Source of the DNA: Devosia sp. ZB163
Lineage (GTDB): Bacteria > Pseudomonadota > Alphaproteobacteria > Rhizobiales > Devosiaceae
Assembly (NCBI RefSeq): GCF_028613635.1
Contig: NZ_JAQRMY010000005.1
Span: forward strand, 124,001-188,000
Direction of reading: 5' to 3'
DNA: 64,000 bases
The position numbers were made by a program, and so were the translations under genes. Positions 51,701 through 64,000 of this stretch are shown here, piece by piece; position 1 is the first letter of the stretch; every line of letters starts with the position of its first letter. The notes beneath the pieces were generated by a model that saw only the letters and a list, made by a program, of their open reading frames with translations, did no database searches and was not told where the DNA came from.

Positions 51701-52543
51701 ATGTACCTGAATACACACCAACGGGTGCGGGCCCCGATCCTTCCCGTGCTTGCAGCGTCGCTACTGATGTCGGTGCTGACGGCAGCGGCGCAGGAGGCAG
51801 CGCCCGCAAAGCCGATTGAGAAGGCCCTTGCCCCGCTCCAGGAAAAGGCCGAGGCCGACAAAATCGAGCCGGCGTCGGTCGAGGCACTGGAGGCGATGGG
51901 AGCCTATCTCGCCGACCTCAAGAACTTCACGCTCAAGAGCGATTTCGAAACCCAGATGGCCCTCGACAACGACCAGGTCATCGATATTACCGGCACCACG
52001 AACTACGAAGTCCGGCGTCCGGATGGCCTGCGCGCGACAGTCGAGAGCGAACTGGGCTCGCGCGAGTTCATCTATGATGGCAAGCAACTGACCGTGGTCG
52101 ATCCGCCCGACAAGGTCTACGGCAGGGCCGAGGTGGCCCCGACCATCAAGGGGATGCTCGAGCAGGTCAGCTACCATCTCGGCATCGACCTGCCGCTGTC
52201 GGACCTGTTCAATTTCGGCACGCCAGACGCGGCCGAGAACATCATCACCGAAGGCTTCCTCGTCAGCTCGGCCAAGGTCGACGACATCCCAGTCAAACAC
52301 TGGGCTTATCGCACAGCCGGCAAGGATTTCGAGCTCTGGATTCAGGACGGCGATACGCCGCTCCCGCTTCGCGTCGTGGTTCTCGACGACACGATCCCGG
52401 CTCGCCCGCGCTTCGAGGCCAACCTCGAATGGGCGCCCAATGTCGAGGTGGCCAGCTCGGAGTTCGAGTTCACGCCCCCGGACGACTACGAGGAGATCGG
52501 TTTTGTCATGCAGACGGCCGAAGCCGGGGAGCCCGCCAAATGA
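51701..52543 (+). CDS. DUF2092 family exported protein
   Basis: A 280-residue exported protein. Residues 1-30 form the signal peptide (ILPVLAASLLMSVLTAAAQ). The mature part contains ALEAMGAYLADLKNFTLKSD, RRPDGLRATVESELGSREFIYDGKQL and TIKGMLEQVSYHLGIDLPLSDLF (about 140-162). This is the DUF2092 pattern, related to LolA/LolB-type half-barrels that bind lipid groups in the periplasm. The last four bases overlap the glycine-rich gene (ATGA), so the two proteins are made together. Confidence 0.9.
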   Translation: MYLNTHQRVRAPILPVLAASLLMSVLTAAAQEAAPAKPIEKALAPLQEKAEADKIEPASVEALEAMGAYLADLKNFTLKSDFETQMALDNDQVIDITGTTNYEVRRPDGLRATVESELGSREFIYDGKQLTVVDPPDKVYGRAEVAPTIKGMLEQVSYHLGIDLPLSDLFNFGTPDAAENIITEGFLVSSAKVDDIPVKHWAYRTAGKDFELWIQDGDTPLPLRVVVLDDTIPARPRFEANLEWAPNVEVASSEFEFTPPDDYEEIGFVMQTAEAGEPAK

Positions 52544-53103
52544 GTGCGTCAAACCTTACCTTCAAACCCCGTCCGGTCATGGCGGTGGTGACTGCCATTC
52601 TCATCGGCCTCGTCCTGTCAGTTCCGGCTGACGCTCGACCGGGCGGCGGTGGCGGGGGCGGTGGCCGCGGCGGTGGTGGTGGTGGCTTCGGCGGAGGGGG
52701 CGGCTTCAGTGGCGGCCATGGAGGCGGCAATTTCAGCGGCAATTTCGGTGGTGGCGGTTCGGGCTTCTCGCGCCCGGCCAACGTCGGCGGTGGCGGCATC
52801 AGTTCGCGGCCGCGTCCCGAACAACCCATCGTGAAACCGCCCGGCAATCGCCCCGACCGCCCGAACCGGCCTGATCACCCCAACCGCCCGAACGTTCCGT
52901 GGATACCCGGGGCCGGTATCTGGTGGGGCGCCCAGATTTCCGACGACTACTGGGATGATCTGAACGTGGTCTACAACCTGCCCAACAGCTGCCAGCAGGT
53001 GCGGGTCAATGACCAGCGCTATATCCGTTGCTCCAACGGCTGGTACCAGAAGGTGTTCAACGGCAATCAGGTGGCCTACGCCGCCGTTGCGGCGCCGCGC
53101 TGA
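52540..53103 (+). CDS. Glycine-rich exported protein
   Basis: A 187-residue protein. After a signal peptide (about 14-32, VMAVVTAILIGLVLSVPADA) comes a roughly 55-residue stretch of Gly with scattered Phe, Ser, His and Asn. A Pro/Arg/Asn-rich segment follows (RPDRPNRPDHPNRPN). The C-terminal 75 residues form a small domain with two Cys (PNSCQQVRVNDQRYIRCSNG), probably disulfide-bonded. It is coupled to the DUF2092 gene. Cell-surface or envelope location is likely; function unknown. Confidence 0.82.
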   Translation: MSASNLTFKPRPVMAVVTAILIGLVLSVPADARPGGGGGGGGRGGGGGGFGGGGGFSGGHGGGNFSGNFGGGGSGFSRPANVGGGGISSRPRPEQPIVKPPGNRPDRPNRPDHPNRPNVPWIPGAGIWWGAQISDDYWDDLNVVYNLPNSCQQVRVNDQRYIRCSNGWYQKVFNGNQVAYAAVAAPR

Positions 53104-53113
53104 CCGAAGATGG

Positions 53114-53154
53114 CGTTGCCACGATGCCCTCGCTAGGCGCGCGTCGTGGCAACG
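53114..53154 (+). promoter_or_regulatory. Perfect 11-bp inverted repeat covering the channel start codon
   Basis: CGTTGCCACGA (53114-53124) and TCGTGGCAACG (53144-53154) pair perfectly around 19 bases. The right arm contains the GTG start (53146) of the channel gene. It could block translation initiation, act as a temperature or ion-sensitive switch, or end the upstream transcript. Confidence 0.45.
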
Positions 53155-53595
53155 ATCCTTCACTTTAGCCTGGGCTTCGCGACCGTCGGGACCACCGTCG
53201 TCCTGCACCTTGTCGGGCTTGCGCTGATCCTGCGACTGCTCGAGCTGTGCAAGGAGCGGCTGAAGCGGACCCGGATCATGCAGATGATCCTCATGGGTTC
53301 GGTCGTCTGCGGCATTCTCGCGCTGCACATGGCCGAGATCAGCGTTTACGCACTGATCTTCTGGCTCGGTGGGGCCCTCGCGCCCTATGACATCGCCCTC
53401 TACTTTTCGGCGACGACGTTCACCACCATCGGCTATGGCGACGTGACTGTTGACGGAGCGTGGCGCCTGTTTGCCGCCCTCGAGGGACTGACCGGGATCA
53501 CACTCGTTGGATGGTCGGTGGCGTTCCTCGTGACAGTGGTGCGTCGGCTGGACCAGTGGCTGGGGGCCCAGTCACCCGGACGTCTGCGCCGGTGA
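53146..53595 (+). CDS. Two-helix potassium channel family protein
   Basis: A 149-residue ion-channel (KcsA-type pore) protein. The selectivity filter is FTTIGYGDVTVDG (about residues 91-103), flanked by a pore helix (LYFSATTF) and an outer and inner helix. An extra N-terminal helix (TVVLHLVGLALILRLLELC) precedes a basic loop, so there are about three to four membrane segments. GTG is the only reasonable start. Its last 24 bases overlap the 3' end of glsA on the other strand. It may contribute to charge balance during acid stress. Confidence 0.9.
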   Translation: MATILHFSLGFATVGTTVVLHLVGLALILRLLELCKERLKRTRIMQMILMGSVVCGILALHMAEISVYALIFWLGGALAPYDIALYFSATTFTTIGYGDVTVDGAWRLFAALEGLTGITLVGWSVAFLVTVVRRLDQWLGAQSPGRLRR

Positions 53596-54564
53596 CGAAA
53601 CGAAGAGGTCGAGCCCGAGGTGCTGTGACAGGTACTTCGCTACCAACTGGCCCTTGATGCTGTTGCCGGCGGTATCGAGCAGCGGCGCGAACGTGCCGAG
53701 CCCGCCCTTGCCCGGCGAAACGGCGACGATGCCGCCGCTGATGCCACTCTTGCCGGGCAGCCCGATCTCATACAGCCAGTCTCCCGAGGTCTCGTAGAGT
53801 CCGGCGGTGGCCATCACTGCCAGCGTGTAGTGACAGACCAAGGGATCGATCACCCGTTGCCGCGTCACTGGATTGACGCCGCCGCTGGCAAGTGTTGCGC
53901 CCATCACGGCGAGGTCGCGGGCGGTGACGTTGAGGCAGCACTGGCGGGTGTAGAGATCTACCGCCTGCATCGGGTCGCAGTAGATTCCGCCGAGGCCATG
54001 GAGGATCTGGGCGAGGCCGCGGTTGCGGAAGTTGGTGGTGGAGGCCGAGGCGAATACCTCGTCGTCGAGTGCTAACTCGCGCCCGGCGAACTCGGAGAGG
54101 CCGGCGCGAAGGAAATCCCATTTGTCCTCCGCACTGTCCCCCGGCGCGAGGCTGGTCGTCGCCATGGCGCCGCTGTTGACCATTGGATTGGTGTGCCCGC
54201 CTGGGTTGCGCTCGAGCGGCGCGGCGGAGTTGAAGGCAGAACCGGTGGCGTTCACGCCGAGCTTCTGGCGGGCCGCGGTCGGTCCGATCTGCTCGCAGAT
54301 GAGGGCGAAGACGAAGGGCTTGGAGATACTCATCAGCGTGAACTCGTGGTTCATGTCGCCGACCCCGTAGGTCTCGCCGTTGGTGGCCGCGATACAAATG
54401 CCGAAGAGGTCCTCCTGGGCGCGTGCCAGGGCAGGGTAGACCTGCGAGCGCTCACCCTCGGTGTTGTCGCGCACCAGCATGTGGGCTCGCTCGACGATCT
54501 GCCGGACATCGACCGGCGACGGCAACTGGCCGGTCGAAACGTAGGGGCGCGCCTCGTGGATCAT
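53572..54564 (-). CDS. glsA: Glutaminase A
   Basis: Hydrolyses glutamine to glutamate and ammonia. The 330 residues are a serine-dependent beta-lactamase-like fold with catalytic Ser79 and Lys82 (FTLMSISKPF). Also present are the substrate-binding RNPGGHTNPMVNSGA, and GKSGISGGIVAVSPG near the C-terminus. E. coli YbaS of this family is an acid-resistance enzyme: the ammonia takes up protons and leaves as a gas. It is the last gene of the minus-strand run aspT, decarboxylase, Ca2+/H+ exchanger, glsA (20-base gap), which supports an acid-response role here. Confidence 0.95.
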   Translation of the reverse strand: MIHEARPYVSTGQLPSPVDVRQIVERAHMLVRDNTEGERSQVYPALARAQEDLFGICIAATNGETYGVGDMNHEFTLMSISKPFVFALICEQIGPTAARQKLGVNATGSAFNSAAPLERNPGGHTNPMVNSGAMATTSLAPGDSAEDKWDFLRAGLSEFAGRELALDDEVFASASTTNFRNRGLAQILHGLGGIYCDPMQAVDLYTRQCCLNVTARDLAVMGATLASGGVNPVTRQRVIDPLVCHYTLAVMATAGLYETSGDWLYEIGLPGKSGISGGIVAVSPGKGGLGTFAPLLDTAGNSIKGQLVAKYLSQHLGLDLFVSSPAQTSG

Positions 54565-54584
54565 CTGACCGCACTCCGTCGCGA

Positions 54585-55679
54585 CTAGGCAGCAGGCGGC
54601 GGGAGCAGGAACAGGGTGATCCCGAAGATGCCGTAGACCATCAGCAGGAGCACCCCCGGATACCAGGCGGACCGTCCGCTGCCGCTGACGAGGATCGCCG
54701 TAAGCGTGGCGAGGAACATCATCAGGACTGCGCCCGGCCAGAACAGCATATCCATTGGATGCGGGCCGATGAAGTAGCTGAGGATCAGCAGGACCGGCGC
54801 AACGAACAGCGCGATCTGGGCGGCACTGCCCAGCGCAATGCCGACGCTGAGATCCAGCCGGTTCTTGCGGGCGGCGGTGAAGGCGGAGAGGATTTCGGCC
54901 GCTGCGCCGACGATGGCGACGACGATGAAGCCGACGAACGCCGGCGACATGCCCAGCGTCTCTGCCGCGTGCTCCAGCGACGCAACGAAAACGTGGCTGA
55001 CGAGCGCGACGACGATGGTGATGCCAACGAGCATGATCAGCGCAATGCCGAGGCGCCAGGGATGCTCGTCGGCCTCCCCGTGGTCGCGCGAGCCGAAGAA
55101 GCCCTTGTGGGTCTTCAGCGCAAAGAACATGCCGAGGCCGTAGGCAATCATGAGCAGGACCGCGATGCCGAGGCTGATGTCCTGGATGTAGCCGCCGGGC
55201 GGCGCGCGTTCGGCGTTGGCGACAGCCGACGGGACGATCAGCGCGACTGTGGCAAGGAAGAGCAAGGAGGCCTGGAAGCGGGCACTGGTGCTGTTGAACT
55301 CCTGCACGTGGTGCCTGAGCCCGCCGATCAGGAACGACCCCCCCAGCATGAACAGCGAGTTGGTGACGATTGCGCCGGCGATCGTCGCCTTGACGAGGAG
55401 GTACTGGCCGGCCGCCAGCGCTGTCAGCGCGATCACCATTTCGGTAAGGTTGCCGAGCGAGGCGTTGAGCAGCCCTCCCACCGTGTCACCCGTACTGTGC
55501 GCGACGGACTCGGTCGCCTTGCTCATCAGGGCGGCCAGCGGGACGATGGCGAGCACGGACAGGATAAACAGCCAGGTGTGCTGATCCGGCCAGAGCACCT
55601 CGGCAACGAAAACGATGGGGACGAAGACGAGCAGCCAGAGCAGCGGCGTCTGGATGATGTCCTTGATCACCTGGCCCAA
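54585..55679 (-). CDS. Ca2+/H+ (cation/proton) exchanger, ChaA/y4hA type
   Basis: A 364-residue antiporter with about eleven helices. The two inverted alpha-repeat motifs of the CaCA superfamily are visible: LNASLGNLTEMVIALTALAA (about 88-107) and IVGAAAEILSAFTAARKNRL, with the key acidic residues. LGSAAQIALFVAPVL follows the second repeat. ChaA-type proteins exchange Ca2+, Na+ or K+ for H+. It lies between the decarboxylase (53 bases) and glsA (20 bases), in one apparent operon. Its direction of action under acid stress is unclear. Confidence 0.92.
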   Translation of the reverse strand: MGQVIKDIIQTPLLWLLVFVPIVFVAEVLWPDQHTWLFILSVLAIVPLAALMSKATESVAHSTGDTVGGLLNASLGNLTEMVIALTALAAGQYLLVKATIAGAIVTNSLFMLGGSFLIGGLRHHVQEFNSTSARFQASLLFLATVALIVPSAVANAERAPPGGYIQDISLGIAVLLMIAYGLGMFFALKTHKGFFGSRDHGEADEHPWRLGIALIMLVGITIVVALVSHVFVASLEHAAETLGMSPAFVGFIVVAIVGAAAEILSAFTAARKNRLDLSVGIALGSAAQIALFVAPVLLILSYFIGPHPMDMLFWPGAVLMMFLATLTAILVSGSGRSAWYPGVLLLMVYGIFGITLFLLPPPAA

Positions 55680-55732
55680 CGGGGGTCTCCTTGTGGGAAG
55701 GGGCCCGCGCGTCGCGCGTGCCCCGAGAGCGG

Positions 55733-58597
55733 TCAGTGCGTGGTGCGGTTACGCGCGGCTGGCCTGCGGGCCTTGGCGCGTGGTGTCGCGGCTGCGGCGA
55801 CGACCGGGATCACCTTGGCCGGGCGCTCGGTGCGTCCGTTCGGGCGCTTGGCGGCTGTCGCGGATTTGGGGGTCGCCGCAGGCTTGCCGGCCGTCGCGGA
55901 CCTAGTGGCGCCCGCCATCTTGATGAGCTTGAGGCCGCGCGCCTTCTCGTAGCCGTGGATCTCCTTCACATCGAGCTTGCGCATGAAGTCGATGGTTTCC
56001 TTGGTGATCACCTGGCCCGGTACCATGATGGGGAAACCTGGCGGGTAGGGGATGACGAAGTTGGCCGAGACCATGTCGGGGCCTTCCTTCAGGCGCCGAT
56101 CGCATTCGGGGCCGATGAGCGGCACGTACTCGGTGCCGGCCATGTCGTAGGCGCCATAGAAGGCCGAGCGCATATCGCCTTCCGGCGTCAGCTTGCCGGC
56201 GTCCTTGCGGTAGGCCGCATGGAAGTGGGAGAAGTTCGGCAGGTCGGGTACGTCGGTCATCAGCGCCTTGACGCGGGCCGCTAGCGCCTGGCGCGCCCCG
56301 TCACCGCCTTCGGCGAGCTGGTCCTCGATCCCCTCGCAGATCTCGAGCAGGGCGCGGATCAGGTGGGCGATGTCGCTGCGCGTGTTGTTGATGTTGGACT
56401 GCAGCAGCACTGAGTTGCGCGACGTCTTGTTGAGCTGGATGTTGTAGCGGTCGGTCAGCAGCGCCTTGAACTGGGTGCCGTCGAACCCGGCCGTGCCACA
56501 GACGAGAGTCAGCCGCGTCGGGTCGAGGCAGAACTCGTCTTCATGCATGCTCTTGATCTGGGTCGCCCAGGTAGTCTTGTCGGCGAGGAAGTCGGTGAAG
56601 CCGCTCTTCCGGTACTCGGCCGGCACCATGGCGTCGGCGCCCAGGACCTTGAAGTATTTCGAGATCACGGGATGGGCGTTGACCTCGCGACGGATGGCGA
56701 GCGCGATCTCGATGGCATTGAGCACGAGGCCGTAGCCCTCGAGTTCCATCTGCCGGCGCGCGACATCGAGTGCGGCAATGAGCTGCTGGTTGGGGCTGGT
56801 GGAGGCATGCGTGAAAACGGCTTCCTTGAACTGCGCTTCGACCGTGTGGAACTCCACGTCCTTGACCAGCACCATCGAACCCTGACGCAGGGCCGACATC
56901 GACTTGTGGGTCGAGTTGGTCTGGTAAACGCGGATCCGCACCTTGGAGGGATCGGGGATCAGTCGGGTCGCGAGCAGCTTTTCGACCGATGGATTGGGCC
57001 CGAGCTCGATCTGCTGGCGGGCATAGGCTTCCTGCGAGCCGGGCTCCCTGATCCAGTCCTCGATGGCCTGTGCGGCCCCCATCGCGGTGCGGGGGCGCAG
57101 GATCGGCGAGAAGCGGGCAAAGCCGAACCAGGCCTCATCCCAGAGGAACACGAGGTCGGGCTTGATGGCGAGGCATTCCTCCATCACCCGGCGGACATTG
57201 TAGATATGTCCGTCGAAGGTGCAGTTAGTGAGGTCCAGCATCTTGACGCGGTCGAGCCGGCCTTCATCCCTCGCCGCGAGCAGCGCCTTCTTGATCGTCG
57301 ACAGCGGGACGGCGCCGTACATCGAGTACTCCGTCATCGGGAAGGCCTCGACATAGAGCGGCTGGCCGCCGGCCAGCACGAGCCCGTAGTGGTGCGACTT
57401 GTGGCAGTTGCGGTCGAGGATGACGATGTCGCCCGGCGCGATCAGCGCCTGGTGCACCATCTTGTTGGAGGTGCTGGTGCCGTTGGTGACGAAGAACACC
57501 CGGTCGGCGCCGAAGGCGCGGGCAGCCATGTCCTGGGCGCGTTTGATGTTGCCGGTGGGCTCGAGCAGGCTGTCGAGGCCGCCGGTCGTGGCGCTGCTTT
57601 CGGCAAGGAACAGGTTGATGCCGTAGAACTCGCCCATGTCGCGGATCCAGTCGGACTTGAACACCGACTTGCCGCGGGCGATGGGCAGGGCGTGGAAGGT
57701 GCTGATGGGCCGCTGGGCGTATTTCTTGAGATTGTCGAAGAAGGGCGAGACGAAGCGATCGTCTATGCCCTCGAGGATCGAGAGATGGAGCTCCAGTGGC
57801 TCCTCGACGGCGTAGAGAACGCGCCGCAGCGCCGATGCTCGAGGATCTCCGGCCAGCATTTCGACGCGACGGTCGGACAGCAGGTAGATGTCGAGCTCCG
57901 GCCGCACGTGCTTGATCGCGTTGGCCAGCGCCAGCGCCAGGTCGGGATCGTCCGCCATGGATTCGTCGAGGCCCATATTGGAGAGCACGTCGCGCAGGAT
58001 CGGCGCCGGGTGGCGCGAGGCATAGGCGAAGCCCTCGACGATGGTCACGGCATTGATGTCGGGATTGATGATCGCGGCGCAGAAGGCGTCCTCGAAGCTG
58101 CCGACCGGCACCACCTCGTAGACGAAGCGATCTTCGGGACGGCGAAGCCGGCGCATCTCGGCGATCCGGTGAGCGTCGCGCGTGCCATCGCCCGGGGCAA
58201 CGAGGAGCATCTCGAAGTAGGGCCGCTTGGCGGTGCGGCCGAGGACCGAGGGCAACAGTTCGGCTGCCGTCTCGGCACCATCGCTGGGCGTGTCCCACTC
58301 GGATGGATCGCTCTTGAACGAGCGTGTGGCAATGGCGAGCGACAGGCGCCGGGCGAGGTCGGAAAACCCGGTGGCATCGCCGCCGCGCAGCCGATCCCTC
58401 AGCGCCGACATCAGCCTGCCGCCAGGGAAGGCGTGGAAGTCCTCCATCGGGCCGAGCTCGTCGAGCGCGGCTTCGACTTCCCCGGCGACAGGCTTGCCCG
58501 CTGCCCAGGACCTGGCGGTGGCGACCAGGTCGCGCCAACGGTCGGCGCGGGCTGCCGGCATAGAGAAGAAGTGGTCGATGCGATGATCCGATGCCAT
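55733..58597 (-). CDS. Orn/Lys/Arg decarboxylase family protein with basic C-terminal tail
   Basis: A 954-residue fold-type I PLP decarboxylase. The N-terminal wing/receiver-like domain (about 60-300) is followed by the catalytic core: FFVTNGTSTSNKMVHQALI, DRNCHKSHHYGLVLAGG, FLWDEAWFGFARF and the PLP Lys565 in NSTHKSMSALRQGSM. The C-terminal domain ends near EIHGYEKARGLKLIKMA. Such enzymes consume a proton per amino acid and release CO2 and a polyamine. Exactly which amino acid is used is uncertain. About 59 extra residues of Ala, Lys, Arg, Pro and Thr form an unusual tail. ATG 58597 was chosen over an upstream TTG. Confidence 0.92.
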   Translation of the reverse strand: MASDHRIDHFFSMPAARADRWRDLVATARSWAAGKPVAGEVEAALDELGPMEDFHAFPGGRLMSALRDRLRGGDATGFSDLARRLSLAIATRSFKSDPSEWDTPSDGAETAAELLPSVLGRTAKRPYFEMLLVAPGDGTRDAHRIAEMRRLRRPEDRFVYEVVPVGSFEDAFCAAIINPDINAVTIVEGFAYASRHPAPILRDVLSNMGLDESMADDPDLALALANAIKHVRPELDIYLLSDRRVEMLAGDPRASALRRVLYAVEEPLELHLSILEGIDDRFVSPFFDNLKKYAQRPISTFHALPIARGKSVFKSDWIRDMGEFYGINLFLAESSATTGGLDSLLEPTGNIKRAQDMAARAFGADRVFFVTNGTSTSNKMVHQALIAPGDIVILDRNCHKSHHYGLVLAGGQPLYVEAFPMTEYSMYGAVPLSTIKKALLAARDEGRLDRVKMLDLTNCTFDGHIYNVRRVMEECLAIKPDLVFLWDEAWFGFARFSPILRPRTAMGAAQAIEDWIREPGSQEAYARQQIELGPNPSVEKLLATRLIPDPSKVRIRVYQTNSTHKSMSALRQGSMVLVKDVEFHTVEAQFKEAVFTHASTSPNQQLIAALDVARRQMELEGYGLVLNAIEIALAIRREVNAHPVISKYFKVLGADAMVPAEYRKSGFTDFLADKTTWATQIKSMHEDEFCLDPTRLTLVCGTAGFDGTQFKALLTDRYNIQLNKTSRNSVLLQSNINNTRSDIAHLIRALLEICEGIEDQLAEGGDGARQALAARVKALMTDVPDLPNFSHFHAAYRKDAGKLTPEGDMRSAFYGAYDMAGTEYVPLIGPECDRRLKEGPDMVSANFVIPYPPGFPIMVPGQVITKETIDFMRKLDVKEIHGYEKARGLKLIKMAGATRSATAGKPAATPKSATAAKRPNGRTERPAKVIPVVAAAATPRAKARRPAARNRTTH

Positions 58598-58670
58598 TGG
58601 AATACCGTCCAATCCTGAGACTCGATGCGTGGTTCGATGGTTGGAAGAGGCGGGCGGCGCGGGCCGCCCG

Positions 58671-60362
58671 CTAGCTCATCAGCATGATGATGACCATGCC
58701 CCACACCGTCAGCAGCGTGTTCCCCACGGCATAGGTCACGGTGTAGCCGAGGCCGGGGATCTGGCTCTTGGCGCGGTCGTTGATCATGCCGAGGGATGCG
58801 GTGGTCGTGCGGGCGCCGGAGCAGGCGCCGAGCAGGATCGCCGGGTGGAACTTGAAGATGTACTTGCCCACGTACATGGCGAGGATCAGCGGGATGGTCG
58901 TCGCGACGATGCCCCACAGGAACAGGCCGAAGCCGAGCTTCTGCAGGCCCGCCACGAAATTGGGCCCGGCCGTGATGCCAACCACCGCGATGAAGATGTT
59001 GAGGCCGACCGAGTTCATGAACCAAACGGTCGAGCTCGGAATGCGGCCGAAGCTGGGACGCACCGAGCGCAGCCAGCCGAACACGATGCCGGCGATGAGC
59101 GCACCGCCCGAGGTGCTCAAGGTCAGCGGGATGCCGCCGACATTGGCGACGAGCGAGCCGACGAGCGCACCGACGACGATCGCCGCGCTGAAGAAGGCCA
59201 CGTCGGCGACATCGCTCGGCCGGTCGACGACGCCGAGCACCTTGGCGATGGCGTTAGTGTCCTGGGTGCGTCCGACTACGGTCAGGATGTCGCCCCGGTT
59301 GATCCTGGTGTCGGCGAGGATCGGGATGTCCGTCGCTGTCGCACCCCGCACGATCTTGCGCAGGAATACGCCGCGTGCGGCAGGCCACTTGCTGAGCTCC
59401 TCGATGGTCTTGCCGTCGGCCTGCTTGGAGGTGACGAGGACGTCCACGCCTTCGATCGGCACGGCCAGCAGTTCGCCGTCATCGACCTCATCGGCCTTCT
59501 CGCCGATGAGATCGACGAGGGTTTCGCGGCGCCCGGATACGGCAAGCACGTCACCGGCCTCGATCACCATGTCGGACGTTGCCTCGACAATCTCGCCGTT
59601 GCGACGGATACGGGCGACGTAGATGCGCTGTCCGGGGAGGATGGTCTCCGCCTCGGCTACCGTCTTGCCGACCACGAGGCCGTCCTCGCGTACCTTGAAG
59701 GCGCGCAGTTCGAAGTGGTGCCAGGCCGTACCGGCTCCACCGATCTCCTTCTTGCCGCCGTGCAGCTCCTCGTAGTTCTTGCATTCCTTCTCGAGGTCGA
59801 TGCGAAGCAGGGCGGGCCCGAGCAGGGCGAGCACGATGGCCGAACCGACGGTGCCGAAAATGTAGGTGACCGCGTAGGCCACAGGCATCGCGTCGAGCAG
59901 GCGCTTGGTTTCGTCCGCAGGCAGTTCGAGGCGGTTGATGGCGTCCGTGGCAAGGCCCATCGAAGCGGAGATGGTCTGCGATCCGGCGTAGAGGCCCGCA
60001 GCCGATCCCATGTCGTAGCCGGCGACCTTCGCGACCAGCCACGGCACGATCAGGCAGAATACGCAGACCACTGCGGCGAAGATCGCTTGTGGCAGGCCGT
60101 CCTTGGCGACACCGCGCACGAATTGCGGTCCGACGCCGTAGCCGACCGCGAACAGGAACATCAGGAATACCGTCGCCTTCAGAGGCGGGGAGATTTCGAT
60201 GCCAAGCTGACCGATGATGACGGCGGCGATCAGTGTCGCGGTGACCGAGCCCAGGCCCAGTCCCTTGAAGGTGAATTTGCCGAAGTAATAGCCAATCGCC
60301 AGCGACAGGAAGATGGCGATCTCGGGGTATTTGCGCAGGGTGTCTGCGAACCACTCGAGCAC
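58671..60362 (-). CDS. aspT: Aspartate-alanine antiporter (AspT/AAEx family)
   Basis: Exchanges aspartate (in) for alanine (out). This electrogenic exchange, coupled to intracellular decarboxylation, generates proton-motive force. About 563 residues: N-terminal membrane half ([20 protein letters not shown]), two central TrkA-C/RCK domains (about 205-370, e.g. [20 protein letters not shown]), and a second membrane half with [18 protein letters not shown] and [20 protein letters not shown] 60362 has GGAGG five bases upstream and gives [17 protein letters not shown], as in AspT. It is the first gene of the minus-strand run and partners asdA at 62 kb. Confidence 0.93.
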
Positions 60363-60726
60363 TTGTGCCTCCACGGGAAGATCCAAGGGAAGGCAGCGAT
60401 GGCCCTGGTTAATCGCGCCACGAACGCAATCACCGCAACGGCTGTGAAGGCGCCTGCCGAGCAGCGGAGTTACAGCCTAGATACTTGTCCCTTCTGATTT
60501 ATCGGCAAAGGCTGGTCCGCTTATTTTATGCATACTTTACTGTCTGGCTTATGCGGGAAACTACAAAGCGGGCGCTAAATAGTTCACTGAATCGAGCATG
60601 TACTAAATGGCACCGAGTACGCGGCAGGGATATAGTTTGACGAGCTGCGCAAATCGCGTTCTCGTATCTGTGGCGGCTGCCGATTCGCGAGGAGTCGCAA
60701 TCGCCGGGGCAAGTTGCGAGGGGCGG
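60363..60726. other. Divergent intergenic region between aspT and the porin gene
   Basis: 364 bases without a convincing gene. The part from about 60480 to 60620 is AT-rich for this genome and should carry the divergent promoters. TTATGC occurs at 60526 and 60549 (23 bases apart), within CTTATTTTATGCATAC and GGCTTATGCGGG. I could not fix definite -35/-10 boxes. Confidence 0.5.
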
Positions 60727-61923
60727 ATGCGGATTAGGCGAAAGCACTGGGCCTTGTTGGTTCTGGCCGGATTGCCAGCTCCGGTGGCGATGGCGGCAGA
60801 CCAGTCGGCAACGACGGCAACCGAGCAAGAGGCCGGCGTGGTCGAGGCCGAAGCGCCGCCCGAGCACCTTATCCCTGACCTCAAGATCGGCGACGACAAG
60901 AACTGGGCCGAGTTCTACGGCCAGATCGACAAGGGCATCCTGTTCTACGACGATGGCGTCGAGGAACTGACCTTCTTCCCCGTGGACAACTCCAACTCAT
61001 CGACGCGTTTCGGTATCCGCGCGCTCGGAACCATCAGCGACGACCTGACACTAGGCGGCAACTGGGAAGTCGAGTGGAACCCCTATGCCACTGGCAACGT
61101 GAACCAGCTCAACATCGACGATTTCGACTGGGACACGTCGCTGCTGCGCAAGGCGGAACTCTACTTCACCAGCGAGACCTACGGTAAGTTCTGGTTCGGC
61201 CAGGGCAGCATGGCGTCCGACGGAACGGCCGAGGTCGACTATTCCGGCACCACCGTGATCGGCTATGCGAACGTCAACGACATGGCCGGCGGCCTGCTGT
61301 TCCGGTTCGACGACGGCACGCTTTCCGATGTCGCCATCGACGATGCGTTCAGCGATTTCGACGGCGCCGGACGCAAGGCCCGGGTGCGCTACGATACGCC
61401 TTCATGGGAGGGGTTCAGCCTGTCGGGTTCGGTGGGCACTCAGATCGTTCCGACCATCACCGATATCCCGGTCTGGGACGTCGCAGCGCGCTACGAGAAG
61501 GAGCTTGGCGACTTCAAGGTCGGCGGCGCAGCGGCTGTATCGGTGCCGGGCGAGGACGTGGTTCTGCTCGACGGCTCCATCTCGGTTCTGCACACGCCGT
61601 CGGGGATCAGCATCACGCTTGCCGGCGCCGTCGAGGAGAACGATGCCTCCGATGCCGACGCACGCTATGTCTACGGCAAGGTCGGCTACCAGACCGAGTA
61701 CTTCGACTGGGGCATGACCGCTGTCTCGGTCGACGCCTATATCGGCGAGGACGTCGCAGCCGCTGGCAGCGAGAGCCGATCGATCGGTGCCCAGTTCGTG
61801 CAGAACATCGACTACCTGCAGACCGAACTCTATCTCGGCGCGCGGCTCTACGAGTATGACGAAGATGTTGCCTCTTTCGACGACGGTTTCGCAGTGCTTT
61901 CAGGTGCCAGACTAAGGTTCTGA
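60727..61923 (+). CDS. Outer-membrane porin
   Basis: A 398-residue beta-barrel protein. The signal peptide is RRKHWALLVLAGLPAPVAMA. Mature barrel strands alternate, e.g. AEFYGQIDKGILFYDDGVEE and SSTRFGIRALGTISDDLTLG; YGKFWFGQGSMASDG resembles the constriction-loop region of general porins. The chain ends GARLRF with the C-terminal Phe needed for insertion by BamA. ATG 60727 was chosen because it begins the signal peptide. It precedes asdA by 118 bases on the same strand, suggesting a role in letting aspartate or alanine cross the outer membrane. Confidence 0.87.
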   Translation: MRIRRKHWALLVLAGLPAPVAMAADQSATTATEQEAGVVEAEAPPEHLIPDLKIGDDKNWAEFYGQIDKGILFYDDGVEELTFFPVDNSNSSTRFGIRALGTISDDLTLGGNWEVEWNPYATGNVNQLNIDDFDWDTSLLRKAELYFTSETYGKFWFGQGSMASDGTAEVDYSGTTVIGYANVNDMAGGLLFRFDDGTLSDVAIDDAFSDFDGAGRKARVRYDTPSWEGFSLSGSVGTQIVPTITDIPVWDVAARYEKELGDFKVGGAAAVSVPGEDVVLLDGSISVLHTPSGISITLAGAVEENDASDADARYVYGKVGYQTEYFDWGMTAVSVDAYIGEDVAAAGSESRSIGAQFVQNIDYLQTELYLGARLYEYDEDVASFDDGFAVLSGARLRF

Positions 61924-62041
61924 CGGCTGCCCGGGCATCCTGTCGCCCGGCTCGTCGCCCCCAGGGTGGACTGATCTTGAGTGCCCGCCGTGCCTCATCG
62001 CCGGCAGCGGGCTGGATCCAATGTCCATCCGGGAGTTCCCT

Positions 62042-63667
62042 ATGGCGACGTTAGATATCGACTATCGCAAGTTCGACAAGATGAGCCCCTTCGAGATCAA
62101 GGACGGGCTCATACGGCTGGCCAAGAGCTCGGCGCAGAAATCAGCCAATACCCTGCTCAATGCCGGCCGGGGCAACCCCAACTGGGTGGCGACCAAGCCG
62201 CGTGAGGCCTTCTTCCTGTTCGGGAGCTTTGCGCTCTCCGAGTGTCGCCGCAGCATGGATGATCCCGTGGCCGGCCTCGCCGGAATGCCGCAGATGAAGG
62301 GCATCTCCGAACGCTTCGAGCTCTGGCTGCATCAGCACGAGGATCAACCCGGCGCCGAGTTCCTGCGCAAGATGGTGGACTATGCCACCGTGCGCCTCGG
62401 CTTCGACGCCGACGCCTTCGTCCACGAACTTACCGACTCGATCATCGGCGACAACTATCCGGTGCCCGACCGGATGCTCTTCCATGCCGAGCAGATCGCC
62501 CATCGCTACCTGATGTGGGCGATGTGCAACGACAAGCCTCCGGGCGGCTGGTTCGACCTTTATGCCGTCGAAGGCGGCACGGCGGCCATGTGCTACATCT
62601 TCAAGTCGCTGATGGCGAACCGCATCCTCAAGAAGGGCGATCGCATCGCGCTCGGCACCCCCATCTTCACGCCCTATGTCGAGATCGCCCATCTCGAGGA
62701 TTATGCCTTCGACGTGGTGAACATCCGGGCGTTGCAGGAGAACCGCTTCCAGTACTCCGACGAGGAGATCCGCAAGCTCGAGGATCCGAGCATCAAGGCG
62801 TTCTTCGTGGTCAACCCCGGCAACCCGACGTCCATGGCGATCGATCCCGCGACCATGGCCAAGCTCGTCGAGTTCGTGAAGACCAAGCGACCGGACCTCA
62901 TCATCCTCACCGACGATGTCTACGGCACGTTCGTGCCGAACTTCCGCTCGCTGATGGCCGAGCTGCCTTACAATACGATCGGGGTCTATTCGTACTCCAA
63001 GTATTTTGGCTGCACCGGCTGGCGCCTGGGCGTGATCGCGATCCACGAGCGCAACATCATCGACGACAGGATCGCCAAGCTTGGGGAGCGGGAGCGCCAG
63101 GCCCTGCACGATCGCTACATCGCCATCACGCTGGAGCCCGAGAACCTCAAGTTCATCGACCGCATCGTGGCCGACAGCCGCGACGTGGCGCTGAACCACA
63201 CTGCCGGCCTGTCGCTGCCGCAGCAGGTGATGATGACGATGTTCTCGCTCGCCGAGCTGATGGACACCGACAAGGTGTACCAGAAGGCCTGCATGAAGAT
63301 CTGCGAGGACCGTCTTGCCTCGCTGCTCATGGGCCTGCCGCTCGACCTGCAGCCCAACCAGAACTTCGCCTACTACTACGGCACGATCGACTTCGAGTTC
63401 TGGCTGCGCCGGGTTGCCGGCGAAGAGATGGTGGAGTGGCTGAAGGAGCACGTCCATCCGCTCGATCTGGTGCGGCGACTGGCCGAGGACCACGCGATCG
63501 TTCTGCTCAACGGTGGGGGCTTCGCGGCGCCCGACTGGAGCGTGCGCGTGTCGTTCGCCAATCTGCCCGACGATGTCTACGACGACATCGGTCGCGCCGT
63601 CCGCGCGGTCGGGCGCGGCTATATCGAGGCCTACAATGCCTCAAAGGCAAGCACAGGTCGGAAGTAG
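62042..63667 (+). CDS. asdA: Aspartate 4-decarboxylase (bifunctional with aspartate aminotransferase)
   Basis: Converts L-aspartate to L-alanine and CO2, using one proton. The 541 residues form a fold-type I PLP enzyme of the AsdA group, larger than ordinary aminotransferases. Features are LLNAGRGNPNWVATKPREAF near the start, FDLYAVEGGTAAMCYIF, FFVVNPGNPTSMAID, ILTDDVYGTFV and the PLP Lys320 in YSYSKYFGCTGWRLG. GGGAG lies six bases before ATG 62042. Its product alanine is the counter-substrate of AspT encoded 1.7 kb away on the other strand. Confidence 0.95.
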   Translation: MATLDIDYRKFDKMSPFEIKDGLIRLAKSSAQKSANTLLNAGRGNPNWVATKPREAFFLFGSFALSECRRSMDDPVAGLAGMPQMKGISERFELWLHQHEDQPGAEFLRKMVDYATVRLGFDADAFVHELTDSIIGDNYPVPDRMLFHAEQIAHRYLMWAMCNDKPPGGWFDLYAVEGGTAAMCYIFKSLMANRILKKGDRIALGTPIFTPYVEIAHLEDYAFDVVNIRALQENRFQYSDEEIRKLEDPSIKAFFVVNPGNPTSMAIDPATMAKLVEFVKTKRPDLIILTDDVYGTFVPNFRSLMAELPYNTIGVYSYSKYFGCTGWRLGVIAIHERNIIDDRIAKLGERERQALHDRYIAITLEPENLKFIDRIVADSRDVALNHTAGLSLPQQVMMTMFSLAELMDTDKVYQKACMKICEDRLASLLMGLPLDLQPNQNFAYYYGTIDFEFWLRRVAGEEMVEWLKEHVHPLDLVRRLAEDHAIVLLNGGGFAAPDWSVRVSFANLPDDVYDDIGRAVRAVGRGYIEAYNASKASTGRK

Positions 63668-63780: not shown

Positions 63781-63999
63781 CTAGTGGCCGCCGCTGAGCA
63801 CCAGCGTCTGGACCGGCAGCATGGCTGCCTGAATGCGCAGGATGAGGGCGTGGACGAGGGCCGTTGCGTCGATCGCGTGGTAGAAGAGCCATTCGGGCGA
63901 TCCCGCCGGCACCTTCTCCAGCTCGTCATGCTTGTTGCTGTAGACGTTCGCGATGCAGGTGCCTCCCGGCGGAATGCCCAGCGACTGTCCCTCGAATAG
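63781..63999 (-). CDS. C-terminal 72 residues of a protein cut by the window edge
   Basis: The frame is open from the right edge and ends TAG at 63781. It reads LFEGQSLGIPPGGTCIANVY, then SNKHDELEKVPAGSPEWLFY and HAIDATALVHALILRIQAAM, ending LPVQTLVLSGGH. The strand-like GGTCIANVYSN followed by a long amphipathic helix resembles the end of HlyD-type membrane-fusion proteins (YiaV/AaeA-like), but I hold this weakly. The following perfect terminator supports a real gene. Confidence 0.6.
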   Translation of the reverse strand, partial: LFEGQSLGIPPGGTCIANVYSNKHDELEKVPAGSPEWLFYHAIDATALVHALILRIQAAMLPVQTLVLSGGH

Positions 64000-64000
64000 C

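Follow-up and report, generated by a model that had tools for sequence, protein, structure and literature searches.

Which amino acid does a large decarboxylase handle when its gene lies beside that of an aspartate-alanine antiporter, and what is such a gene pair for? This question is raised by a stretch of 64,000 nucleotides from Devosia sp. ZB163 (contig NZ_JAQRMY010000005.1, positions 124,001 to 188,000), which we call the window and in whose coordinates all positions are given unless marked otherwise. Here, one minus-strand run encodes an antiporter of the AspT family, a 954-residue decarboxylase of the Orn/Lys/Arg fold (hereafter DC), a Ca2+/H+ exchanger (Cax) and a glutaminase (GlsA). 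A divergent plus-strand pair encodes a porin and the aspartate 4-decarboxylase AsdA. An earlier note on this DNA had described this arrangement, together with a K+ channel nearby, as an acid-response island. All of the genes that it named were found at the place and on the strand that it gave, each with a family model over its cut-off, and the single minus-strand run opposite the porin and asdA was confirmed. What had been called a cation/H+ exchanger is present and can be assigned more narrowly to the Ca2+/H+ exchanger family.

To assess the genomic association of DC, a collection of 84,980 species genomes was scanned with an alignment that contained only DC, and at least 582 stretches were confirmed. 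The best 80 of these, each extended by as much as 10 kb to either side, are the DC loci analysed here (L080-L159). DC and AspT were counted as adjacent if an AspT-family antiporter with a match of at least 300 residues lay no more than 600 nucleotides (nt) from DC on the same strand. By this measure, AspT adjoins DC in 69 of the 80 loci and in none of 20 control stretches, which are arbitrary 20-kb pieces of five genomes searched at the same thresholds and form a small set (400 kb, compared with 1.67 Mb of DC loci). AspT is found anywhere in the locus in 70 of 80 cases, with two copies in 43 and three copies in one. When loci are combined into genus-level groups, 39 of 42 groups contain at least one adjacent pair. 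Our data show a genetic coupling between this DC lineage and antiporters of the AspT family. The neighbourhood comparison that the earlier note had proposed, with rare co-occurrence counting against the island, left its core intact.

The three groups without an adjacent pair are those of L129, L140 (Ignatzschineria) and L143. In L143, AspT is in pieces, with a 300-residue piece 635 nt away from DC. Contig ends cut L129, L147 and L149, and L129 retains the first 36 residues of an AspT with 81% identity. In L120, AspT lies on the opposite strand from DC. No AspT is in reach in L094, L105, L107, L110, L115, L118 and L140, five of these seven being Bradyrhizobium. SulP transporters were considered as a replacement carrier, being encoded directly upstream of DC in the Bradyrhizobium loci L110, L115 and L118, which are devoid of AspT. 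This candidate was dropped, as L105 and L107 have neither protein. The substrate of these SulP proteins could not be read from their sequence, one representative scoring 101 bits on the DauA model with a cut-off of 614.

The remaining components of the island recur less frequently as accessories: AsdA in 24 of the 80 DC loci, a relative of the K+ channel in 19, Cax in 11 and a porin of the window type in six. Cax lies downstream of DC-AspT in L081, L124, L134 and L161. Since none of the island components was found in the 20 control stretches, their co-occurrence exceeds chance. Relatives of two further genes, one HlyD-like and one DUF3302-like, were observed in 33 and 29 of the 80 loci. This recurrence suggests that the two genes belong to the island on a regular basis, so that it runs past the end of the window. 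Response-regulator genes recur upstream of DC (23/80), a histidine kinase represents another recurrent neighbour cluster (18/80), and a cluster represented by an OprD-type porin occurs in nine loci, including Lysobacter. Polyphosphate kinase 2 (PPK2) and SulP transporters were each seen in 24 of 80 loci and in no control.

The earlier note regarded the combination of genes as unusual, and this view was not supported. Kaistia terrae (L126) has the same divergent layout, AsdA and porin being encoded on one strand and AspT-DC-AspT on the opposite strand, and similar sets were observed elsewhere. Phyllobacterium (L097, L102 and L114) carries AsdA divergent from AspT-DC-AspT, and a relative from the same order (L185) carries porin-AspT-AsdA-AspT-DC on a single strand. 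In Thermohalobaculum (L081), AsdA, the HlyD-like gene and the DUF3302-like gene face DC-AspT-AspT-Cax. A named plasmid record of Rhodobacter sp. CZR27 (L161) shows DC-AspT-AspT-Cax, upstream of which a porin is encoded on the opposite strand. Compared with these relatives, the window has GlsA in addition and lacks the second AspT behind DC.

The partner of AspT was addressed with a FastTree tree of 126 AspT sequences, in which some joins rest on long branches and are unsure. Six subfamilies were distinguished: T1 (26 members), T2 (25), T2b (8), T3 (17), T4 (28, including AspT of the window) and T5 (12). T1 adjoins DC in 25 of 26 cases, and so do all 16 T3 members that were assessed. No member of either subfamily lies within 500 nt of AsdA, although in two T3 loci (L081 and L086) AsdA occurs at a greater distance. 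Of 26 assessed T4 antiporters, 17 lie no more than 500 nt from AsdA and 24 are adjacent to DC. We then consider 18 genomes, chosen because a T1 or T3 pair is present and AsdA is not in the locus; their completeness is not given. Genome-wide, AsdA over cut-off is missing in 15 of these 18, and AspT homologues therefore appear to serve DC itself, without AsdA. This largely settles a dilemma posed in the earlier note, which had seen no Lys, Arg or Orn antiporter to go with the decarboxylase and concluded that either AspT is shared or the decarboxylase is for polyamines. The consensus sequences of T3 and T4 share the re-entrant-loop motifs GSQTISAS(I/M)GLATDAIN and GART(S/T)TAS, so AspT of the window may serve both DC and AsdA. 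T2 follows DC in Rhizobiaceae. Two more AspT-family genes of the Devosia genome fall beside T2 in the tree; the copy at C2:493079-494752 (L074) is intact and has no DC alongside, and the copy at C1:1194754-1196333 (L075) is broken into two overlapping frames. At the position of Arg76 of the Tetragenococcus halophilus AspT, Gly is found in AspT of the window, Arg in the solved chain 9oqy, which we take to be the T. halophilus protein, and Glu in the AsdA-linked AspT of L. plantarum, so that this residue does not define the family. According to the available parts of the literature, T. halophilus AspT exchanges aspartate for alanine (PMC9508256), the family includes exporters of glutamate and succinate (PMC9527358), and the substrates named for it are aspartate, alanine, serine, succinate and glutamate.

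To examine the substrate class of DC, an alignment was made of 81 DCs (that of the window and those of the 80 loci), 16 members of a second DC lineage and 36 canonical Orn/Lys/Arg decarboxylases; the canonical set comes from 38 loci, two of which were dropped as having no long frame with the signature. The pyridoxal phosphate-binding Lys565 (STHK) and Asp487 (DEAW) are present in 81 of 81 DCs and are common to all aligned groups. At position 723, all 81 DCs and all 16 proteins of the second lineage carry Asn, where the canonical enzymes have Glu (34/36) or Ser (2/36). Four residues further on, Arg727 is invariant in both DC lineages (81/81 DCs), compared with Leu (31), Asp (4) or Thr (1) in the canonical set. 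Gln733, Asn735 and Asn737 are also invariant in the AspT-linked lineage. The canonical Glu (Glu526 of LdcI) has been proposed to bind the lysine substrate, on the basis of docking and a cited proposal in the available part of PMC5607190. In DC, the pocket motif NKTSRN replaces the mostly EKTG-type motif of the basic amino acid enzymes, whereby an anion is lost and an invariant arginine is gained. For this reason DC most likely decarboxylates an acidic amino acid, glutamate in the first place and aspartate in the second, and not Lys, Arg or Orn. The earlier note had assumed a basic amino acid decarboxylase; the family assignment (OKR_DC_1) stands, whereas a basic substrate has become doubtful with Asn in place of the canonical Glu. 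None of the NCBIfam models for Lys, Arg or Orn decarboxylases scores over its cut-off for DC, the best reaching 180.5 bits compared with 968. An acidic substrate agrees with the AspT partner, aspartate and glutamate being among the substrates named for that family, and, as a weak point, with GlsA of the window. It also counts in favour of this reading that the Devosia genome has no canonical glutamate decarboxylase and no PF01276 protein besides DC.

The second DC lineage is 39-50% identical to DC of the window (39-48% by tblastn in the 16 loci L067-L073 and L176-L184) and carries the same NKTSRN motif in 16 of 16 cases. It differs from the window lineage in its surroundings, as none of the eight genomes that carry it in the order sample described below has an AspT-family match. 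A CN-hydrolase, an ATP-grasp protein (PRK06524, 'biotin carboxylase') and an AAT-family acyltransferase are encoded together in 13 of the 16 loci, the last two in 15; this predicted gene set looks like a biosynthetic cluster. GabT adjoins DC in three of the 16 loci (L068 and L072, both of one genus, and L070) and lies within 7 kb in five, and in L068 it scores over the TIGR00700 cut-off. Proximity to GabT also agrees with an acidic substrate for DC.

The distribution of the module was examined in an order sample of 150 genomes and a phylum sample of 398 genomes. Full-length DC was found in 13 of the 150 order genomes, five with the AspT-linked lineage and eight with the second lineage (47-50% identity). 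An AspT-family match was likewise found in 13: all five genomes with AspT-linked DC and eight that carry neither DC lineage. Outside the AspT-linked lineage this amounts to eight of 145 genomes, and six of these eight matches have only 26-28% identity. Three of the AspT-linked genomes (G035, G112 and G143) belong to one genus, and the five do not count as five independent cases. Full-length AsdA was found in one of the 150 genomes, the window's own. The order sample includes four more genomes of the window's family, and none of them has DC, which suggests that the island DC was gained by transfer, with loss in the relatives as the alternative. In the phylum sample, 17 of 398 genomes match at E 1e-100, seven with the AspT-linked lineage (at least 58% identity) and ten with the second. 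As AspT-linked DC is carried by seven of 398 genomes, the module is broadly but thinly spread. Carriers include many alphaproteobacterial genera and some Beta- and Gammaproteobacteria; the cases in Rokubacteria, Verrucomicrobia, Acidobacteria and Thermodesulfobacteriota are single metagenome-assembled contigs, for which misassignment is possible.

Taken as a whole, we read the island as an acid-homeostasis (or proton-motive-force) module in which decarboxylation is coupled to antiport and DC acts on an acidic amino acid, a reading that we hold with confidence and doubt in about equal parts. The amino acid would cross the outer membrane through the porin, and AspT would take in the anionic amino acid in exchange for the neutral product of its decarboxylation. 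Inside the cell, DC, acting on its predicted substrate, and AsdA, converting aspartate to alanine, would each use one proton and release CO2. Decarboxylation takes up one cytoplasmic proton, so that with AspT exchanging substrate for product each turn would remove a proton and move charge. GlsA, of a family that converts glutamine to glutamate and ammonia, would supply glutamate, and Cax and the K+ channel may provide for Ca2+ and charge balance. The module would thereby function in the manner of GadB-GadC, although with an enzyme of the Orn/Lys/Arg fold and a carrier of the AspT family. The proton-consuming, acid-type island of the earlier note survives as the best reading, but the glutaminase turns out to be only a local addition. 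More tentatively, and leaning somewhat to the side of doubt, we consider that the module may represent an unrecognised class of acid resistance. In this class, an Orn/Lys/Arg-fold decarboxylase would have been retooled to convert glutamate or aspartate to gamma-aminobutyric acid (GABA) or beta-alanine and would work with AspT antiporters, as an equivalent of GadB-GadC with which it shares no parts.

Other explanations have to be weighed against this. DC could act on a basic amino acid (Lys, Arg or Orn) after all, with an AspT that has diverged to exchange this substrate for the corresponding amine, either in acid resistance or to supply polyamines. DC does belong to the OKR fold family, as the sole PF01276 protein of its genome, and the OprD-type porins of the nine loci mentioned above are of a family that admits basic amino acids. 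On the other hand, the residue that would meet the distal amino group is the Asn that is invariant in both DC lineages, the substrates named for the AspT family include no basic amino acid, and the 20 annotated clusters among 33 recurrent neighbour clusters contain no agmatinase or polyamine gene. We regard a basic substrate as unlikely. It seems less likely still that the aspartate/alanine cycle of AsdA and AspT is the working unit, with DC doing a separate job in a loose cluster of stress genes. The proximity of T4 antiporters to AsdA and the scores of both window proteins over their family cut-offs would fit such a cycle, but T4 adjoins DC as well, T1 and T3 adjoin DC and never AsdA, most of the chosen genomes lack AsdA over cut-off, and AsdA is found in 24 of the 80 DC loci compared with 70 for AspT.

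The module might also work in energy conservation, the exchange generating proton-motive force, or in envelope or osmotic stress as a general stress island, and not in acid. Most of the recurrent neighbours are genes for membrane or stress functions (HlyD-like, DUF3302-like, SulP, PPK2 and K+ channel). For Zymomonas, the available part of PMC4189746 reports that acetate induces ZMO1682, the asdA homologue in an asdA-aspT operon, and that the genes of this operon are expressed together under ethanol and salt. Decarboxylation with antiport nevertheless removes protons whatever the trigger, so that this explanation differs from the acid-homeostasis module in regulation more than in mechanism, and DC-AspT pairs are found in the acetic acid bacteria Acetobacter and Gluconobacter. 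We consider a role of this kind unlikely.

Several observations weigh against an acid-homeostasis module with an acidic DC substrate. We know of no enzyme of the DC family with an established activity. Ten of the 80 DC loci have no AspT match of 300 residues, five of the ten being Bradyrhizobium and three being truncated at contig ends. GlsA is present in only two of the 80 loci, AspT-linked DC is thin on the ground (five of the order genomes and seven of the phylum genomes), and the adjacency of GabT to DC rests on two genera. The island contains no regulator gene, and no promoter motif shared with relatives was found in its control region. The active-site argument is drawn from aligned sequences and not from a complex with substrate, and the function given to the canonical Glu itself comes from docking and a cited proposal in the available part of PMC5607190. 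The closest solved chains to DC are 9n0o and 9n0n (E about 9e-221, with residues 42-914 of 954 aligned), 9n0p being nearly the same chain. 9N0O is Rv2531c of Mycobacterium tuberculosis, whose activity was not clarified by the structure study, as far as the available part of PMC12910592 goes. Rv2531c keeps the Asn but has Ile at the position of Arg727, and it may differ from DC in this respect.

The features of the island are listed in Table 1. DC reads from an ATG at 58597. For AspT, the start is more likely the GTG at 60362, which is preceded by GGAGG, although the open frame extends to 60386, and for the porin a longer open frame begins at 60607. The HlyD-like gene comes after asdA, and the DUF3302-like gene, under the Pfam cut-off, follows it outside the window, both lying within C5:187784-189475 of the genome. 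No Rfam match was found in the window, and comparison of the control region with six relatives gave no shared motif, the best 18-mers scoring 69 compared with 68-70 in three shuffles. Sigma-70-type and terminator-like sites are no more frequent than at chance level. A DUF2092 gene and a gene for a glycine-rich protein lie upstream of the K+ channel gene (51701-53103); relatives of the former were seen in five of the 80 DC loci and in no control, and the latter in none of the 80.

Table 1. Features of the island in window coordinates, with model scores in bits and the corresponding cut-offs.
Feature	Position	Strand	Evidence and remarks
Small K+ channel-type protein (Ion_trans_2)	53146..53595	+	49.9, cut-off 22.5; converges on glsA; peripheral member
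glsA, glutaminase A family	53572..54564	-	NF009020 'glutaminase A' 446.6, cut-off 395
cax, Ca2+/H+ exchanger	54585..55679	-	TIGR00378 292.0, cut-off 211.15
DC, Orn/Lys/Arg-fold decarboxylase, N-terminal extension	55733..58597	-	OKR_DC_1 237.5, cut-off 27
aspT, aspartate-alanine antiporter family (AAEx 2.A.81), subfamily T4	58671..60362	-	TIGR03802 702.9, cut-off 546.95
Divergent control region	60363..60726	.	between aspT and porin
Outer-membrane porin (Porin_4)	60727..61923	+	55.1, cut-off 27; ATG 60727, signal peptide read
asdA, aspartate 4-decarboxylase	62021..63667	+	TIGR03801 768.1, cut-off 435.1
HlyD-like gene, 3' part (Biotin_lipoyl_2)	63784..64000	-	under Pfam cut-off; extends past window end

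Two kinds of known system resemble the island in part. Both proteins of the AsdA-AspT proton-motive cycle, of the Tetragenococcus halophilus type, are encoded in the window. In contrast to that cycle, aspT here runs with the genes for DC, Cax and GlsA on the strand opposite asdA, with the porin gene between them, and AspT occurs without AsdA in most of the 80 DC loci. A Lactiplantibacillus plasmid carries an annotated asdA-aspT pair. The island also resembles GadBC, AdiAC, CadBA and SpeF-PotE in placing a decarboxylase beside an antiporter, and it shares a glutaminase A with the glutamate system. GadC, AdiC, CadB and PotE are APC-type carriers, whereas the antiporter of the window belongs to the AspT (AAEx) family, and DC, with 954 residues, is not GadB. 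As in GadB-GadC, decarboxylase and antiporter are paired, but a canonical glutamate decarboxylase was not found, the genome containing no match to TIGR01788. Rv2531c is the closest solved structure and differs from DC by the Ile noted above.

Searches of an open-access library gave no paper that ties a large Orn/Lys/Arg-type decarboxylase to AspT-family antiporters. What is new is the DC-AspT pairing and the probable change of substrate class; the constituent families are already known. In two Rhizobium strains, PRF 81 among them, genome work is reported to have detected no orthologue of either the decarboxylase or the antiporter genes of enterobacteria (available part of PMC3557214), and the available part of an acid-stress study of R. 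tropici mentions no such module (PMC5936775). Other strains of Rhizobium, as well as Ensifer, Phyllobacterium and Bradyrhizobium, carry it. In Castellaniella, the available part of PMC12915299 describes glutamate-dependent acid tolerance with rising GABA and without GadA/B, GadC or GlsA, and one 'arginine/lysine/ornithine decarboxylase' without the usual antiporters. The gene of Castellaniella MT123 was considered as a DC and not used as evidence, since it is more likely canonical: in 121 genomes of the family around Alcaligenes endophyticus (G154), 118 match at E 1e-20 and only eight have a full-length DC. The other matches span about 225-275 residues, mostly in frames of about 750-800 residues, as in canonical enzymes.

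The coupling to AspT gives the DC family, for which a structure has been solved, a function that can be tested. If DC indeed takes an acidic substrate, it would form a new decarboxylase-antiporter pair and would show that the charge of the substrate has switched in the evolution of the Orn/Lys/Arg fold, and the island genes would be a candidate set for tolerance of soil acidity. If the class of retooled decarboxylases proves true, an equivalent of GadB-GadC would exist in rhizobia, a group in which two strains have been described, in the available part of that report, as apparently devoid of enterobacterial decarboxylase-antiporter systems.

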